DNA of 64,000 nt from Dietzia timorensis (GTDB lineage Bacteria; Actinomycetota; Actinomycetes; Mycobacteriales; Mycobacteriaceae): positions 2,542,001 through 2,606,000 of the forward strand of contig NZ_CP015961.1 in assembly GCF_001659785.1 (NCBI RefSeq), given 5' to 3'. Positions 3,400 to 56,218 of this stretch are shown piece after piece. The position numbers and the translations under genes were made by a program. Below the pieces are notes generated by a model that was given only the letters and a program-made list of their open reading frames with translations, ran no database searches and was not told the DNA's origin. Position 1 is the first letter of the stretch. Each line of letters starts with the position of its first letter.

Positions 3400-4314
3400 A
3401 TGGCGTCGACCGATCTCAATCTGGTGCGGACCTTTGTCGCTGTGTACGACTCGGGTTCGGTGACCGCCGCGGCCGATATCCTCGGCATTACCCAGCCGAC
3501 CGTCACTCATTCGCTCAACCGTCTGCGGCGCACGATGAACGACGAGCTGTTCCTCCGGGCCCCCGGCGGTGTCGCCCCGACGATGGCTGCGCGCCGCGCC
3601 TATCCGAACTTCGTCGAGGCTCTCAACCGGATCGACGCGGCGTTCCGGCTTTCGGCGCCGTTCGTGCCGGACGCCGAGCCCGCGACGTTCCGCATCGCGC
3701 TGTCCGACGCAGGCGAGGTCTCCACACTCCCGCACCTCGCGCACGCGCTTCGCCGCTCCGGCGCGCACCTCTCCCTGGAGGTGCTGCCCCTCGATATCGA
3801 CCAGGTCGAGGATCAGCTCATCCGCGGCGAGATCGACGCATTTATCTCCAGCGCCGTCTACACTTCGCGAAACGTGCAGCGGGAGGTGATGTTCACCGAG
3901 CGCTACGTCGTCGTTCTCGCGGAAAACCATCCACGCATCGGCGCCGAGATCTCCGCCGCCGCCCTCGACGGCGAGCGGCACATCGCCGTCCGCGGCGTCA
4001 CCGGCCACAGCAGCCCCTTCGACCGCCAACAGGCGCGCAAGGTCCGACTCGACGCCGTCGTCCCCCGCTTCACCGCGCTGCCTTATCTACTCGCCGATTC
4101 GGACGCGGTGGCAATCGTCCCGTTGTTCATCGCCGAGTCCTTCGCCGCCTCACACCCGCTGCGCTGGGTGGATTCGCCGTGGCCGATGGAGGAGGTAGAG
4201 GTCGCGCTCTACGCGCGCCAACCGCATTCGCGTTCACCGTCCCAGCAGTGGCTTTTCGATGTCGCCACGGACACGCTGCAGTCGGCGTATCCAGCCACCG
4301 ACGGCGCGGAATAA
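3400..4314 (+). CDS. LysR-family transcriptional regulator of aromatic catabolism
   Basis: A 304-residue LysR-type regulator: winged helix-turn-helix at about residues 4-62 (SVTAAADILGITQPTVTHSL is the helix-turn-helix region), then a periplasmic-binding-protein-like effector domain to the C-terminus. It is transcribed away from the transporter-pobA-pcaH operon, the classic arrangement in which such a protein activates the divergent operon in response to an aromatic acid and represses itself. The effector is probably 4-hydroxybenzoate or protocatechuate; this is inferred from context. Confidence 0.88.
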   Translation: MASTDLNLVRTFVAVYDSGSVTAAADILGITQPTVTHSLNRLRRTMNDELFLRAPGGVAPTMAARRAYPNFVEALNRIDAAFRLSAPFVPDAEPATFRIALSDAGEVSTLPHLAHALRRSGAHLSLEVLPLDIDQVEDQLIRGEIDAFISSAVYTSRNVQREVMFTERYVVVLAENHPRIGAEISAAALDGERHIAVRGVTGHSSPFDRQQARKVRLDAVVPRFTALPYLLADSDAVAIVPLFIAESFAASHPLRWVDSPWPMEEVEVALYARQPHSRSPSQQWLFDVATDTLQSAYPATDGAE

Positions 4315-51416: not shown

Positions 51417-51658
51417 ATCGGCCCAACTTCGGATTCTGTGGCGTTCCTCTCCCGCTCTCGCCCGTGCGGCGCCACCTGTTATCGCACTCGTCGCCTGCGC
51501 CGAGCCCCCGCGCGCATGTTGCCGAATGGCAGTGCATGGTTTCTACATTCGCAGTAATGTCATAGACAAGGTGTCCTGGCGCCAACATTGTGCGACCAGC
51601 TAGCCTTGTTGTCCCGAAACACGCACTCCCACAGTCGATCTCCCAAGGAGTTCAGATC

Positions 51659-52177
51659 ATGGCAAATAATCAGAACGCATCCGGCTCGCAGTCGAGCGGC
51701 GCGAACGCGGACGCAGGCAAGGCCGCCTCGACATCGACATCGGAGGGAGCTCTCGACACCACTCGCGGCAACACCACGATCGCCGACGTCGTCGTTTCCA
51801 AGATCGCCGGGATCGCCACGCGCGAGGTCGGTGGGGTGCATGACGTCGGAGGAGGCCCTGCTCGCATGGTCGGTGTCCTCCGCGAGCGCATCCCCGGCGC
51901 GCGCACGAACGTCAGCCAGGGCGTCTCGGTCGAGGTCGGCGAACGACAGGCTGCCGTCGACGTCAGTCTCATCGCCGAGTACGGCGTGGCGATCCACGAG
52001 CTCGCCGAGGCGGTACGGCAGAACATCATCGCCGCGGTCGAGGGCATGACCGGCCTTGAGATGACCGAGGTCAACGTCGAGATCACCGACGTCTACCTGC
52101 CGGGTGAGGACGACGAGGACGACGATGCCGATCAGCAGAAGACGCAGTCGCTCGAAACGCGCTCGCGCGTTCAGTAG
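51659..52177 (+). CDS. Asp23/Gls24-family envelope stress protein
   Basis: A 172-residue Asp23/Gls24 protein. The domain occupies about residues 38-150 (TTIADVVVSKIAGIATREVG, VEVGERQAAVDVSLIAEYGV, then the VEITDVYLP end), flanked by a Ser/Ala-rich N-terminus and an acidic C-terminus. In Gram-positive bacteria Asp23 proteins bind the membrane through AmaP and act in envelope stress. The ATG has AAGGAG upstream. It leads a seven-gene operon with two further Asp23-like or related proteins, a J-domain-like peptide and membrane partners. Confidence 0.9.
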   Translation: MANNQNASGSQSSGANADAGKAASTSTSEGALDTTRGNTTIADVVVSKIAGIATREVGGVHDVGGGPARMVGVLRERIPGARTNVSQGVSVEVGERQAAVDVSLIAEYGVAIHELAEAVRQNIIAAVEGMTGLEMTEVNVEITDVYLPGEDDEDDDADQQKTQSLETRSRVQ

Positions 52178-52205
52178 TCACTGAGCCGTCGAAACGACAG
52201 TCGAT

Positions 52206-52625
52206 ATGACCCACCCACACCACGCACGAAACACCGGCCAGGTGCGCCGCGTCGTCACGCCCGCGCAGGCAGGGCGACTCTCCGTTTCCGGAGCGAGTGG
52301 CGCACCGACGGCCTCGAAGGTACGGACGCCGGCGCAGGTTAACGCCGAGGCGGCGCATCTGGCGGCCGAGACGATCTCCGGCGTGCCGGGGATTGTTCGT
52401 GTCATCAGCCCGTTTCTGTCCGCGCACTCTCCTCGCTCTGTCGGCGAGCCGCGCGTAGAGGTCCGCGGGGATAGGCTCCGTGCCTCCGTCGTCATCGATG
52501 GGCAGCGTCCCATTCCGGAGGTCGAGCGGGACGTGCGGTCGGCGCTTGCACGTCAGTGGGAGGGCGAACTCGATTTGGTGTTCGCCGACCTCGAGCTTCC
52601 GGACGAACCGGCCGAGGATGAGTAG
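52206..52625 (+). CDS. Asp23/Gls24-like protein, divergent paralogue
   Basis: A 139-residue protein 28 bp after the first Asp23 gene. The segment VNAEAAHLAAETISGVPGIV followed by VEVRGDRLRASVVIDGQRPI and a final VFADLEL has the strand-helix order of the Asp23 domain with a shorter N-terminus. No membrane segment. Likely an associated or modulating paralogue; the family link is moderate. Confidence 0.65.
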   Translation: MTHPHHARNTGQVRRVVTPAQAGRLSVSGASGAPTASKVRTPAQVNAEAAHLAAETISGVPGIVRVISPFLSAHSPRSVGEPRVEVRGDRLRASVVIDGQRPIPEVERDVRSALARQWEGELDLVFADLELPDEPAEDE

Positions 52626-52627
52626 CG

Positions 52628-52924
52628 ATGGCCGAACAGCGAAGTAGCTCGGGACGGACGCCGAAGGACGAGTCGGCGTATCGCAGGGATCGGCGCGCCG
52701 CCGTCCTCGCCCACCACCCGGATCACGGCGGATCCGCCGACGCGCTGATCGAGGCGCTGGAAGCGGTCGACCGCAAGCACGGGTTGACCCCGGACCGAGA
52801 CAAGGCGAAGGCCGCCTCCGAGCAGTCGTTCGACCAGGCGCTCGCGGTCGTCGTCACGGCCGCCGCCGGGATCGTGGCCGTCGGGGCATCGTTGGCGCTA
52901 TCCATCGCGTCGCGAAAACGATAG
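52628..52924 (+). CDS. Small membrane protein with J-domain-like HPD segment
   Basis: A 98-residue protein, 2 bp after the previous gene. Residues ~17-52 (AYRRDRRAAVLAHHPDHGGS, then DALIEALEAVDR) resemble helix II, the HPD tripeptide (30-32) and helix III of a DnaJ domain, without helices I and IV. A linker leads to a C-terminal transmembrane helix (ALAVVVTAAAGIVAVGASLAL) and a short basic end. It could recruit Hsp70 to the membrane complex, or merely preserve the fold; function is inferred. Confidence 0.65.
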   Translation: MAEQRSSSGRTPKDESAYRRDRRAAVLAHHPDHGGSADALIEALEAVDRKHGLTPDRDKAKAASEQSFDQALAVVVTAAAGIVAVGASLALSIASRKR

Positions 52925-52971
52925 TCGCTAGGAAGAATCACCAGACCATGTTCAAAGCACCGGGAGAGACC

Positions 52972-53151
52972 ATGAAATACACCGCAATCTGCGCGGTGAT
53001 CGGGCTTTTGCTCGCGATCGCCGGGATCATCGGCGGCGTCGGCGCCTTCGTGTTTGCGCTTCTGCTCGCCGTCATCGGTGGCGTCGCCGGAGCTCACCTC
53101 GACGGCCTGATCGATCTGTCCGCGGTGGTCCGCGGGCGTGGCCGTGGATAG
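52972..53151 (+). CDS. Small integral membrane protein, DUF2273-like
   Basis: A 59-residue protein with two hydrophobic helices (AICAVIGLLLAIAGIIGG and AFVFALLLAVIGGVAGAHL) and a basic tail, matching the small DUF2273 proteins that accompany Asp23/AmaP genes. The ATG at 52972 has GGGAGAG upstream; an in-frame ATG at 52948 is less likely. Its end overlaps the next gene by 14 bp. Confidence 0.7.
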   Translation: MKYTAICAVIGLLLAIAGIIGGVGAFVFALLLAVIGGVAGAHLDGLIDLSAVVRGRGRG

Positions 53152-53866
53152 CTCGACGGCCGGCGCCGACGAGGGAACCAACTGGGACGTCGAACGCTCG
53201 GCGACCGATCGAGGATCCACCGAAGCTTCCACCCGTTCGCTACGGCGCGTGGTGAGGCAGGCCGCGCTGTCGGTCTCCGGGTCCATCGAACACACATCGG
53301 GACTCAATCGGCTCACCGGCCGCTCGTATCCGCGCGTCGAGGTCGGAACCGGACGCGACCGCGTCAGCGCGGAGGTCCATATCGCCGCGATGTGGCCGGC
53401 TCCGATCACCGAGCTCGCAACGTCGGTACGCAGTGCGATCCGCGAGGTTCTCAAGGCGCACACTGCCGCCGAGAGCATCCAGGTCGATGTCCACGTCGGC
53501 GCTGTCGTGCCTGGCCAGACAGTGCTCGACGATGTTGCGCTGCCGCTTTCCGAGCCGGTCACCTCTTCACGCCTGGCCCCGCGGCCGGCGGTGATGCCCA
53601 GTCCTCACGCGGCGAAGGCGCCCGCGACGCCGCGTCCGAAGCAGCTGCACACCCCGGAGGTCTCGGAGCTGCATTTCCGTTCGCCGCGTATCCCGGTACC
53701 GGCGAAGGTGGCATCGGTGTCCGCGCCGACCCGTACCAAGGTCGACGTCCCGTCGGCGCCCGAGCGGCCGCCACTGTTCGTCCCGCAGGCTCCGCCTCCC
53801 CCGCCGGTACGACACCCGAACATCGACCTCGCCGAGGAACGACGCCGAAAAGGGGGACGGAAATGA
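53138..53866 (+). CDS. Asp23-like protein with long Pro-rich C-terminus
   Basis: A 242-residue protein, GTG start, overlapping the previous gene by 14 bp. Residues ~35-125 (RRVVRQAALSVSGSIEHTSG, VEVGTGRDRVSAEVHIAAMW, IQVDVHVGAVVP) fit an Asp23-type domain; the remainder is a disordered Pro/Ala/Arg-rich tail ending AEERRRKGGRK. No membrane segment. The third Asp23-like member of the operon; the tail could mediate protein or surface contacts. Confidence 0.6.
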   Translation: MAVDSSTAGADEGTNWDVERSATDRGSTEASTRSLRRVVRQAALSVSGSIEHTSGLNRLTGRSYPRVEVGTGRDRVSAEVHIAAMWPAPITELATSVRSAIREVLKAHTAAESIQVDVHVGAVVPGQTVLDDVALPLSEPVTSSRLAPRPAVMPSPHAAKAPATPRPKQLHTPEVSELHFRSPRIPVPAKVASVSAPTRTKVDVPSAPERPPLFVPQAPPPPPVRHPNIDLAEERRRKGGRK

Positions 53867-54534
53867 ATGACGACTCCACCGCCGCGTCCGATTCGGCCAC
53901 CACCGACGAGGACAGCCGCATCACCTTCACCCCAGGTGGAAAGATCGGCCAGACATCAACGATCTACACCAACGAGGAGCTCGCCACCGCGCCCAACGCT
54001 GTGACGGTCGGGCGGGAGCCGCGACGGGCGCCCGCAGCCAGGCCTGTCCTCGTGCTTCTCTCGCTCGCCCTGCTGGGGCTCGCGGGTTTCGCCGGATACG
54101 AGCTGTACGCCACCCTGCGCGAGGGCTGGACCCCGATCCTCGGGCCGTGGGTCGAGAACGGACTCGACGGGCCACTGTCCTGGCGCCCACTCCCCTGGGT
54201 CGCTGGCGCGGTTGCCGTGCTCGGGCTATTGATGTTGATTTCCGCCCTCCGCCGCCGTCAACGTTCCCATGTCGGATACGGCGAGGACTCCGCGCTCTGG
54301 CTGACCCCGACGTCCATCGCCCGGCTGTGCTCGCAGCACGCCGGCCGCGTCTCCGGGGTCACCGGATGCACCACGGTCGTCGGCCGCAAGAAGGTCGTCG
54401 CCAACGTGCACGCCGGCGGTCGAGACCTGTCGGACGTGGAATTGGCCGTCCGGCAGGAACTCGCGCCGATCGTCGGCTCGCTCGCGGGAAACAAGACACT
54501 TGTCGTTCGTACTCGGGGAGGTGAAAGCCGATGA
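53863..54534 (+). CDS. Membrane protein of the Asp23 operon, DUF6286-like
   Basis: A 223-residue protein: acidic N-terminus (~65 residues), two transmembrane helices (VLVLLSLALLGLAGFAGYEL and WVAGAVAVLGLLMLISAL), then a C-terminal alpha/beta domain (SIARLCSQHAGRVSGVTGC, DVELAVRQELAPIVGSL) similar to those of actinobacterial AmaP/DUF6286 proteins. The ATG overlaps the previous stop (ATGA) and GGGGGA lies upstream. Probably anchors Asp23 proteins to the membrane. Confidence 0.68.
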   Translation: MNDDSTAASDSATTDEDSRITFTPGGKIGQTSTIYTNEELATAPNAVTVGREPRRAPAARPVLVLLSLALLGLAGFAGYELYATLREGWTPILGPWVENGLDGPLSWRPLPWVAGAVAVLGLLMLISALRRRQRSHVGYGEDSALWLTPTSIARLCSQHAGRVSGVTGCTTVVGRKKVVANVHAGGRDLSDVELAVRQELAPIVGSLAGNKTLVVRTRGGESR

Positions 54535-55094
54535 CTACTCGCGCTTCCGTCCTCACACGTCTGACCGTCATCGTCTTCTCGCTGATCATTCTGGCGGCGG
54601 GTCTTGCGCTCCTCGCGTGGCACTTCGACGTGGCCGACGTTCGGGATCGCTTGACCGGCGGTCCCGTCCCCGACGTCACCGCATGGCCGGAGGCCAACTG
54701 GTGGCCCTGGGCGCTGGGCATCACGTGCGCGGTAGCCGCAGTCGTCGCACTCTCCAGCCTGTTTGGTCTCGCCGCACGGCACGGTATCGGCACCTGGGTG
54801 CTTGACGGCGCATCCCCGTCGGGTGAGCTGAGCGCCGACGTCCACGCCGTCGCCAGCGCCACCGCGCAATCCTTCACCCGGATCGAGGGCGTTCGTAAGG
54901 CAAGCCATCGGGTTCACGAACGCGAAGGCGTGCCAACGATGGAGATCACGTTGCGTTGCGCCCCTTCGGTGGCGCTCGACCGAGTCGAAAAGGCCGCCCG
55001 CATCAACGGCGCGGTGCTCGCTAAGTCCTTCGACAAGCCGCACCTGGCGCAACGCGTGTTCGTGCGAATCGAGAAGGCCGCGCGCGAGCAGTAG
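54531..55094 (+). CDS. AmaP-like membrane anchor of the Asp23 operon
   Basis: A 187-residue protein with two N-terminal transmembrane helices (LTVIVFSLIILAAGLALLAW and WALGITCAVAAVVALSSLFGL) and a C-terminal soluble domain (VASATAQSFTRIEGVRKASH, ALDRVEKAARINGAVLAKSF). This is the layout of AmaP, which holds Asp23 at the cell membrane. Coupled to the previous gene by a 4-bp overlap; last gene of the operon. Confidence 0.72.
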   Translation: MTTRASVLTRLTVIVFSLIILAAGLALLAWHFDVADVRDRLTGGPVPDVTAWPEANWWPWALGITCAVAAVVALSSLFGLAARHGIGTWVLDGASPSGELSADVHAVASATAQSFTRIEGVRKASHRVHEREGVPTMEITLRCAPSVALDRVEKAARINGAVLAKSFDKPHLAQRVFVRIEKAAREQ

Positions 55095-55113: not shown

Positions 55114-55854
55114 CTACCCGGAGAACGTTCCGAAGAGAAGGCTCACCGTCATCGCCACGACTACGGCGTTAAACATGAACGCCAGCAGGGCATGGGTGCG
55201 CATCGCGTTGAGGACGCTCCGCGAGCGCACCCGCGCCTGTGGCCCCAGAAACGTCGAGACGAAGACCGCATGGGAGAGAAAGTCCTCGAACACCGGCGGT
55301 TCGTCGAACGGGAACTCCACGACCTCTCCCGCACCATGCGCGCGCATATAGGTCAGCGAATACGAGTAGGCCATGAGCACCCAGGACCCCGCCGCGACCG
55401 CCAGGCCCAGAAAAATGTAGATCGAATCCTCGCGGCTATACCCGTTCTGTGCGAGGACGACGACGAACACCGTGGCCACGATCGCGCCGAGAACGGTCCA
55501 CCCCGCCGGGTCGGTAGACCCAACCCACGAGTGCCACCATTTGTTGTCCGCCCGCGCCTTCGATTGCGCGGTCTCTCGGAATTCGTCCGGCCCCATTTTC
55601 GCGAACACTCGGTGCGTGAGCCCGCAGTAGATCGCACAGAAGGCGACCCATCCCGGCAACGCGAACTGGATGACGTAGTCGGGCACGCCCGCCCAGCCCT
55701 CGTTGTCGGCGTCGCCGATTCCGCCGTCGTTGAGCCGCACCGCGAAGAACACCCCGGCGCACACGAGCGCCAGCAACGCGGAGACGTTTTGCCGCCAATA
55801 GTCGTTGGTCATCGACGGTAGGAATCTGCGTATCCGCGAAAAATCAGCAGGCAT
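55114..55854 (-). CDS. DUF1345 membrane protein
   Basis: A 246-residue protein with five to six transmembrane helices (FALPGWVAFCAIYCGLTHRV, VLGAIVATVFVVVLAQNGYS, FLGLAVAAGSWVLMAYSYSL) and the conserved SLTYMRAHGAGEVVEFPFDE and LNAMRTHALLAFMFNAVVVA segments of DUF1345. Function unknown. The ATG at 55854 has no strong ribosome site; the next Met is 13 codons later. It converges on the Asp23 operon. Confidence 0.75.
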   Translation of the reverse strand: MPADFSRIRRFLPSMTNDYWRQNVSALLALVCAGVFFAVRLNDGGIGDADNEGWAGVPDYVIQFALPGWVAFCAIYCGLTHRVFAKMGPDEFRETAQSKARADNKWWHSWVGSTDPAGWTVLGAIVATVFVVVLAQNGYSREDSIYIFLGLAVAAGSWVLMAYSYSLTYMRAHGAGEVVEFPFDEPPVFEDFLSHAVFVSTFLGPQARVRSRSVLNAMRTHALLAFMFNAVVVAMTVSLLFGTFSG

Positions 55855-55885
55855 GTGTTCATTGTGCCCAGGATGACAACGCTGC

Positions 55886-55921
55886 AGGGCGCCTTCTCGA
55901 TTCGTGTCGAGAAGGCGCCCT
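55886..55921 (-). terminator. 15-bp hairpin after the 22-residue peptide gene
   Basis: AGGGCGCCTTCTCGA (55886-55900) and TCGAGAAGGCGCCCT (55907-55921) form a perfect 15-bp stem with a TTCGTG loop, 40 bp downstream of the peptide stop and 32 bp before the DUF1345 start. It lacks a clear U-tract, so it may be a terminator helped by Rho or a transcript-end stabiliser. A perfect 12-bp palindrome CGTTGATCAACG (55926-55937) precedes it. Confidence 0.6.
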
Positions 55922-55960
55922 GAAACGTTGATCAACGATTCCCGCGGGAATTATTCGTCG

Positions 55961-56029
55961 TTACAGACCACCGAGCAGCAGATGAAGAAGGTCGCCGACG
56001 ATACCGACAAGTCCAGATACCAAACCCAT
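55961..56029 (-). CDS. 22-residue hydrophobic glycine-zipper peptide
   Basis: A very short gene in the gap between DUF1345 and the VOC gene. AAAAGGA lies 6 nt before the ATG. The product starts MGLVSGLVGIVG and ends LLLGGL; Gly at 2, 6, 9 and 12 forms a glycine-zipper face, Asp13 and His16 are the only chargeable side chains, and it could span or coat a membrane as one helix. Composition resembles phenol-soluble-modulin, delta-lysin or type I toxin peptides, but no family is assigned. A hairpin (56055-56076) precedes it in the leader and a 15-bp hairpin follows, consistent with a small independent transcript. Confidence 0.6.
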   Translation of the reverse strand: MGLVSGLVGIVGDLLHLLLGGL

Positions 56030-56054
56030 GGGGAATCCTTTTCGTAGTTCGAAA

Positions 56055-56076
56055 CGGAGGGCCGAATTGCCCTCCG
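56055..56076 (-). promoter_or_regulatory. Leader hairpin of the 22-residue peptide gene
   Basis: CGGAGGGC-cgaatt-GCCCTCCG is a perfect 8-bp stem, 26 bp upstream of the peptide start codon on the minus strand. It may control translation or mRNA stability. The rest of the gap to the VOC gene (56077-56218) holds a possible -10 (CATAAT at about 56142) but no gene. Confidence 0.5.
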
Positions 56077-56218
56077 CGACTATGTTTCCCCGAGAAGATC
56101 TCCTCCCCGAGGAACACTGTCGAGATTATGGGCCTGCTATTACGTCGCCGGGTCGTCGGCGAAACGAATACTTTACGGCCGAAACCATTGCGGTAATCCG
56201 CCGTTAACAGGTCTTCGT

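Follow-up and report, generated by a model that had tools for sequence, protein, structure and literature searches.

A conserved gene for a 22-residue peptide, with its own predicted promoter and end hairpin, in scattered members of one bacterial family

Results

A small reading frame bracketed by its own signals

The window, by which we mean the whole stretch of 64,000 nucleotides analysed here, carries on its minus strand a 69-nt frame (56029-55961) that translates as MGLVSGLVGIVGDLLHLLLGGL. A sequence-only reading had proposed this frame, with AAAAGGA in front, and the translation bears it out, as it does the spacing of the glycines (residues 2, 6, 9, 12, 20 and 21) and the restriction of chargeable side chains to Asp13 and His16. 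Frames of 22 residues fall below the size kept by most annotation. The features of the unit, in the direction of transcription, are:

56120..56153, minus strand: predicted promoter, an 11-bp direct-repeat box and a -10 box (de novo motif in 20 upstream regions)
56055..56076, minus strand: 5' leader hairpin of 8 bp with a 6-nt loop (arms 56055-56062/56069-56076, exact)
56036..56042, minus strand: AAAAGGA, ribosome-binding-site-like, six bases ahead of the ATG (from the sequence)
55961..56029, minus strand: ORF of the 22-residue peptide, stop included, encoding MGLVSGLVGIVGDLLHLLLGGL (comparison and translation)
55926..55937, no strand assigned: 12-bp perfect palindrome CGTTGATCAACG, partly overlapping the 3' inverted repeat (from the sequence of the window copy)
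55877..55930, minus strand: terminator-like inverted repeat 3' of the ORF with a 16-bp core stem and no T-run (repeat search and folding)

The exact pairing of the leader hairpin and the perfect palindrome confirm what the sequence-only reading had described. The 15-bp end hairpin that it had placed at 55886-55921 is real and forms the core of an inverted repeat with 24-nt arms (55877-55900/55907-55930, 92% match). Of the proposed unit of ~190 nt with an end hairpin of its own, the hairpin stands but the length does not: with the promoter predicted farther upstream, at 56153-56120, the unit would run from about 56153 to 55877, with a predicted leader of about 85 nt and a predicted transcript of about 240 nt. 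Folded as a 221-nt strand, the region reaches -95.1 kcal/mol (z = -5.48), a value as low as none of 200 shuffles attained. Rfam at gathering thresholds gave no match in the window, and ARAGORN called neither a tRNA nor a tmRNA.

Comparison shows the predicted terminator hairpin to be kept in most copies of the gene: a strong hairpin follows the stop codon in 34 of 38 (best 45-nt fold at or below -29 kcal/mol, 120 nt searched), and the median fold after the stop is -35.5 kcal/mol versus -20.2 in 152 random windows from the same loci, 2.6% of which reach the former value. Leader folds of -5 to -18.5 kcal/mol, local values without a random baseline, precede the frame in other copies, where their sequences are unrelated.

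Distribution among genomes

A full frame is present in 9 of the 23 genomes of the window's genus, namely the window's own and eight others at 91-95% identity; the conservation in relatives by which the sequence-only reading had proposed to judge its gene was thus found. A tenth match, in G017, is a fragment within a 436-residue frame and was left out of the count. The remaining 14 genomes are without a full match, and among those at least 90% complete the gene occurs in 6 of 15 (G017 again left out). With the 401 bases that surround the site as a DNA query, four genus matches from other genomes fell below E 1e-5, and these cover the frame plus at most 18 bases beside it.

Across the family, a 16-row profile (threshold E <= 0.001) matched 37 of 401 genomes in 10 of 31 genera, each at 7e-8 or better and each once per genome. 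The order and phylum samples contain members of the window's family: 5 of 397 genomes matched in the former, all from that family, and 1 of 396 in the latter, the window's own genome, with no matching genome outside the family in either. Plasmid, phage and viral contig collections, searched by tblastn with a low-complexity filter, gave no match. Judged by these counts, the gene is an accessory function, missing from most sampled species. Bacteria of this family make mycolic acids. Named copies are found in Corynebacterium variabile NBRC 15286, where the peptide is identical, in Candidatus Corynebacterium avicola and in Rhodococcus sp. HNM0569. The window's family is presumably the Mycobacteriaceae, in which an abstract (PMC12021427) places the corynebacteria. 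Ca. C. avicola has two divergent tandem copies (L064:3837-3905 and 4001-4069), each preceded by a purine-rich run; the pair stands upstream of an HSP70 gene.

Genomic place and empty sites

The flanking genes vary from lineage to lineage. In the eight other genus members the gene follows trpS (tRNA-synt_1b by Pfam), and in the seven examined an RNase H-domain gene lies convergent on its far side, with the RNase_H Pfam family found in the one scanned. In genera g27 and g9 it has glgE on one side and a glucan phosphorylase gene on the other in the six loci examined of 12 (GlgE_dom_N_S and Phosphorylase in the one scanned with Pfam), while HSP70 and MFS genes come after it in two named corynebacteria. 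As the neighbours differ in this way, synteny was dropped as a functional clue. A scan of a neighbouring protein against the genome contigs gave no match.

In the window itself, the gene has upstream of it an AraC-type gene and a 136-residue frame that Pfam does not match; directly downstream, on the same strand, comes a DUF1345 gene (55114-55854, minus). Among the 23 genus genomes this membrane protein gene occurs in the window's genome alone (E 1e-20), which puts the peptide gene in a genome-specific place. Convergent to the DUF1345 gene ends a plus-strand cluster (51590-55094) with Asp23 cell-envelope proteins: Asp23 is matched at 51590-52174 (E 1.1e-27) and, slightly under the cut-off, at 53138-53863 (E 7.1e-6), and it is not matched at 52206-52622 or 54531-55091. 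The TrpS of the window's genome (L111, G000:C1:1060900-1062900) has 74% identity to that of G016, versus 87-98% for the 19 other matched genomes, and no peptide frame follows its gene. On this evidence, the window's species seems to have branched off deep within its genus.

Two genus genomes, G004 and G010, preserve the flanks that surround the gene at the trpS site of G005, with a single gap in its place. What is missing runs from the -10 box through leader and gene to the terminator; of the promoter motif, the left edge is still there. Since both genomes keep the flanks without the gene, the gene is dispensable; we infer that they have lost it, rather than that G005 gained it.

Selection on the peptide

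We compiled 39 copies, that is, 38 plus a copy with a GTG start in G1059, which together represent 17 distinct peptides over 22 positions. Thirteen of the 22 positions (M1, G2, L3, V4, G6, L7, V11, G12, L15, L18, G20, G21 and L22) are invariant, an invariance that is partly ascertained, because the profile used to find the copies represents the conserved form. Position 9 can be G, T, A, D or E, and at position 13 the copies show D, G, E, S or N; the changeable polar places thus fall on one face of a helix. At position 5 the window has Ser but 35 of the 39 copies have Ala, and Lys and Arg are absent from every variant. The frame ends at residue 22 in 38 of 39 copies; in the remaining one (L047:1501-1569) TGC replaces the stop codon and the frame runs longer, which may reflect drift, an error or an extension of the peptide.

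Between the window and the eight other genus copies there are 11-16 synonymous changes over ~20 sites and 1-3 non-synonymous changes over ~43 sites. Equal rates of the two, which the sequence-only reading had named as evidence against its gene, are not what we see: pN/pS is 0.054 in the genus (nine copies). Over all 38 copies it is 0.14, with 0.061 in g27 (nine copies), 0.095 in g23 (three) and 0 in both g9 and g24 (three each); higher values come from three small groups, namely g20 (0.31, four copies), g5 (0.24, two) and Corynebacterium (0.38, three). A frame conserved at 91-95% while most synonymous sites differ from the window is more than chance would leave, and comparison of the copies shows strong purifying selection on the peptide.

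A promoter motif and its candidate regulator

Twenty of the 38 upstream regions, each taken from -200 to -30 and picked to span the lineages, were given to an expectation-maximisation search, which returned a 34-bp motif of roughly nAAC-n6-GnAAC-n8-CCaTAgnnTCG, with a log-likelihood of 207.9 versus 96.1-114.2 in eight shuffled sets. The real set had 60 restarts here, and 50-60 in the motif searches as a whole, against 25 for each shuffled set. The T, A and T of its -10 box are found in all 20 aligned sites. When lineages were held out in turn and all positions of a locus scanned, the upstream site ranked first in 16 of 20 loci and 2, 2, 2 and 5 in the remaining four; at L060, one of these four, a different upstream site outscored that of the motif. 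Among the window's 127,934 positions, its own site comes first when the window's genus is withheld from the matrix, whose training sites had been located by a search that took in the window. Here, the second half-site is GTAAT (56143-56139) and the -10 box TAATCT (56128-56123). The predicted promoter is without a TTGACA-like -35, and a consensus sigma-70 scan found no promoter. Comparison shows this putative promoter motif to be common to the lineages tested.

Direct repeats just upstream of a -10 box suit activators of the OmpR/PhoB type. The nAAC-n6-GnAAC form of the motif resembles the 11-bp direct-repeat boxes of OmpR-type regulators (MtrA, GlnR), followed by a TAnnnT -10 box. Excerpts of the respective papers give the GlnR box of M. 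smegmatis as t/gTAAC-n6-Gc/aAAC (PMC10704036) and the MtrA box of C. glutamicum as (A/G)TAACAATttn(A/G)TAACAAT (PMC3353115), each with an 11-bp period. Both the period and the AAC cores agree with either published box, and the cores do not separate the two regulators (mean core match 6.85 of 10 for GlnR and 6.35 of 10 for MtrA). The full published MtrA and Streptomyces consensus boxes score weakly against shuffles (mean z 0.96 and 1.15, 25 regions). MtrA or GlnR boxes are the best-fitting known ones, which makes these two the candidate regulators.

The peptide as a helix and its database matches

The peptide is predicted from its hydrophobic moment to be a hydrophobic amphipathic helix: at 100 degrees the moment exceeds that of composition shuffles in all 16 variants tested (p <= 0.009, 2000 shuffles), with mean hydrophobicities of 0.63-0.74. 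The predicted helix is short and leaderless, the whole frame amounting to 22 residues in 38 of 39 copies. One face would gather small residues (G2, A/S5, G6, position 9, G12, D13, H16 and G20) and the opposite face would be aliphatic. That V4, L7, V11, L15 and L18 are unchanged in 39 copies favours specific packing over a generic surfactant.

Searched singly against Pfam, the 16 variants matched one family only, PSMalpha (PF17063), in 6 cases with a best E of 0.013. Five of the ten listed variants match, their first 15 residues aligned to the first 15 of the model's 21 positions, with scores of 12.8-15.9 bits, so that even the best falls short of the 23-bit cut-off. The variant nearest the PSMalpha profile is a copy from g20 (L066:3977-4045) with E9, S13 and S16. 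NCBIfam gave PSM_alpha_Shaem for one variant (E 0.077) and a SecE-type model for one (E 0.27). For comparison, none of 20 natural hydrophobic 22-residue segments taken from frames of the window matched PSMalpha; three matched other models (SecY, 0.026; PepSY_TM, 0.019; DUF7550, 0.42), of which the SecY and PepSY_TM matches are probably the segments' own families. A whole-genome search with the PSMalpha model hit the peptide locus in one of 37 carrier genomes (G098, E 0.56), another place in one more carrier, and something in 5 of 14 control genomes, with none of the 37 carriers above the cut-off.

The window's own peptide is unmatched by PSMalpha, as by Pfam, NCBIfam and PDB when searched singly. 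A single PDB match through the profile (E 3.5) and one of 16 members in PHROGs (E 2.8) were taken as chance, and PADLOC gave no match. The strings MGLVAGLI, GLVSGLVG, GLVAGLIG, GDLLHLLLGG, GLVAGLVG and LLHLLLGG were not found in the papers searched. The peptide gene is not described in the literature or the curated protein families searched.

Discussion

What does this locus encode? On comparative grounds, the minus-strand frame 56029-55961 is a real gene, and the proposal of a free-standing gene for a short, membrane-active-looking peptide is strongly supported by the conserved frame, selection, the end hairpin and the promoter motif. Its best reading is a stand-alone unit for a 22-residue leaderless peptide with a predicted role in a membrane. 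In the mechanism that we propose, an OmpR/PhoB-type response regulator would occupy the direct repeats that adjoin the -10 box on its upstream side and turn on a short mRNA. The peptide would fold into a single amphipathic, mostly hydrophobic helix and insert into the membrane; its glycine-rich small face would pack against itself or a partner membrane protein, and the packed peptide would adjust the membrane or the partner under the inducing condition. We put the probability of this whole account, that is, a stand-alone, regulator-switched, membrane-inserted packing peptide whose partner, membrane and regulator are all presumed, at about one half.

Our preference for a small membrane peptide, one that has a specific partner or associates with itself, comes from V4, L7, V11, L15 and L18: a surfactant would not need these positions to be invariant. 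A role like that of a PSM or of a pore nevertheless competes seriously with it. A secreted amphipathic peptide of the PSM-alpha kind would be exported without a leader and either serve as an extracellular surfactant (spreading, de-aggregation, lipid or hydrocarbon contact) or act on other cells. The start-to-start matches to PF17063, the one to PSM_alpha_Shaem, the silence of all control segments against PSMalpha, the significant helix moment and the tandem copies in one species are consistent with such a peptide, but every score lies below the cut-off, the whole-genome model reports the locus in a single carrier while also matching in controls, and the variants are without Lys or Arg and more fixed in sequence than a surfactant requires. 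Our leaning is against this reading, though it keeps a sizeable minority chance. The PSM/delta-lysin analogy of the sequence-only reading survives in the sub-threshold matches of 6 of 16 variants and fails for the window's own peptide and at all but one of 37 genomic loci: the peptide may work like a PSM-type helix, and a PSM identity would rest on sub-threshold matches. A bolder form of the idea, tentative and in our view rather doubtful, would make it the mycolic-acid bacteria's own counterpart of PSM-alpha, a leaderless 22-residue helix controlled by a response regulator. Produced in response to nutrient or osmotic stress, it would assemble with itself on or within the mycomembrane and act there as a surfactant or a pore. 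A peptide that forms a small pore or channel in the mycolate outer membrane, much as the leaderless amphipathic helices of PorA/PorH form an oligomeric channel, would suit matches that fall within one family only, with named copies in Corynebacterium and Rhodococcus, a terminator of the gene's own and an amphipathic helix, both also described for C. jeikeium PorA with its 40 residues (excerpt of PMC3792995), and the tandem copies of Ca. C. avicola. According to the same excerpt, porA/porH are located between groEL2 and ppk2 and porA is hard to find by sequence across species, so their place is fixed and their sequence elusive; the peptide gene is the opposite. The window's flanks are the 136-residue frame and DUF1345 rather than groEL2-ppk2, which is likewise absent in four other loci (Pfam neighbours tRNA-synt_1b, RNase H, GlgE, phosphorylase, HSP70 and MFS). 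The peptide is also about half the length of PorA, Ser5 as a conceivable mycoloylation site is the window's residue and Ala in most copies, and no porin family appears among the Pfam and NCBIfam matches of the 16 variants, where PorA/PorH models are possibly absent. We consider a pore unlikely; the analogy with corynebacterial porins drawn earlier finds no support in these family matches or in gene place and rests on habitat and anatomy.

The same data bear on two further readings. A type I toxin-antitoxin pair, in which an antisense RNA restrains a membrane-damaging peptide, would account for a short hydrophobic peptide, strong leader and end hairpins, and the gene's absence from related genomes. 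However, a search for a 22-bp motif in 20 downstream regions (150 nt after the stop) gave an antisense motif scoring 80.0 versus 67.3 +/- 2.5 in shuffled sets, which is above chance, resembles the terminator stems and has no -10-like element; the sense promoter scored 118.2 versus 69.1 in the same kind of search, and the upstream antisense strand 121.1 versus 70.2, with a motif that we read as the sense promoter reversed. Copies are absent from the plasmid, phage and viral collections. With no antisense promoter in the flanking regions searched and one match per genome in all 37 carriers, though a tandem pair in one species, the toxin analogy of the sequence-only reading finds no backing, and we hold a toxin to be very unlikely. 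An attenuator leader peptide, whose codons or translation would set read-through into the next gene, could be suggested by a short ORF with a terminator directly after it and, in the window, a DUF1345 gene next on the same strand. Yet the downstream genes of different lineages are unrelated, those of the seven other genus members examined run convergent to the peptide gene, and it is amino acids, not codons, that are conserved; largely contradicted by the comparative data, this explanation retains hardly any credit with us.

The small membrane peptide with a specific partner or self-association that we prefer offers a testable entry point, as there are related genomes with and without the gene, the predicted box for its regulator is defined in sequence, and the peptide is accessible to synthesis. 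The peptide is almost letter-for-letter fixed among Corynebacterium, Rhodococcus and the window's genus and has a recognisable promoter of its own; sequence, predicted promoter and end signal are kept in scattered family members despite differing places in the genome. If it does act at the mycolate envelope, that structure, whose smallest proteins easily escape notice, would gain a layer of peptide.

How does this gene compare with known systems? To PSM-alpha (PF17063, NCBIfam NF033427) it is linked by the sub-threshold, start-to-start match to a 21-position model and by a short amphipathic helix, and it differs in having no basic residues, a near-fixed sequence, scores below the cut-off and other bacteria as hosts. 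Staphylococcal PSM genes stand in operons, according to an excerpt of PMC12445096, whereas the peptide gene is usually alone. With PorA/PorH, as portrayed in the excerpt of PMC3792995, it has in common a short amphipathic helix, an autonomous unit with a terminator and a home in mycolic-acid bacteria. The difference lies in 22 as opposed to 40 or more residues, and in a fixed sequence at variable places where PorA/PorH show the reverse. Type I toxins are likewise short and hydrophobic with a structured mRNA; here, in contrast, the flanking regions searched hold no conserved antisense promoter, the plasmid, phage and viral collections gave no copies and the gene has a single match in each of 37 genomes. 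MgrB and KdpF exemplify small membrane proteins whose target is a larger membrane protein and which are often controlled by a two-component system. Set against these, the peptide gene has no shared partner gene nearby between unrelated lineages, and it resembles them in a predicted single hydrophobic helix, conserved residues on both faces and a promoter box of the response-regulator type.
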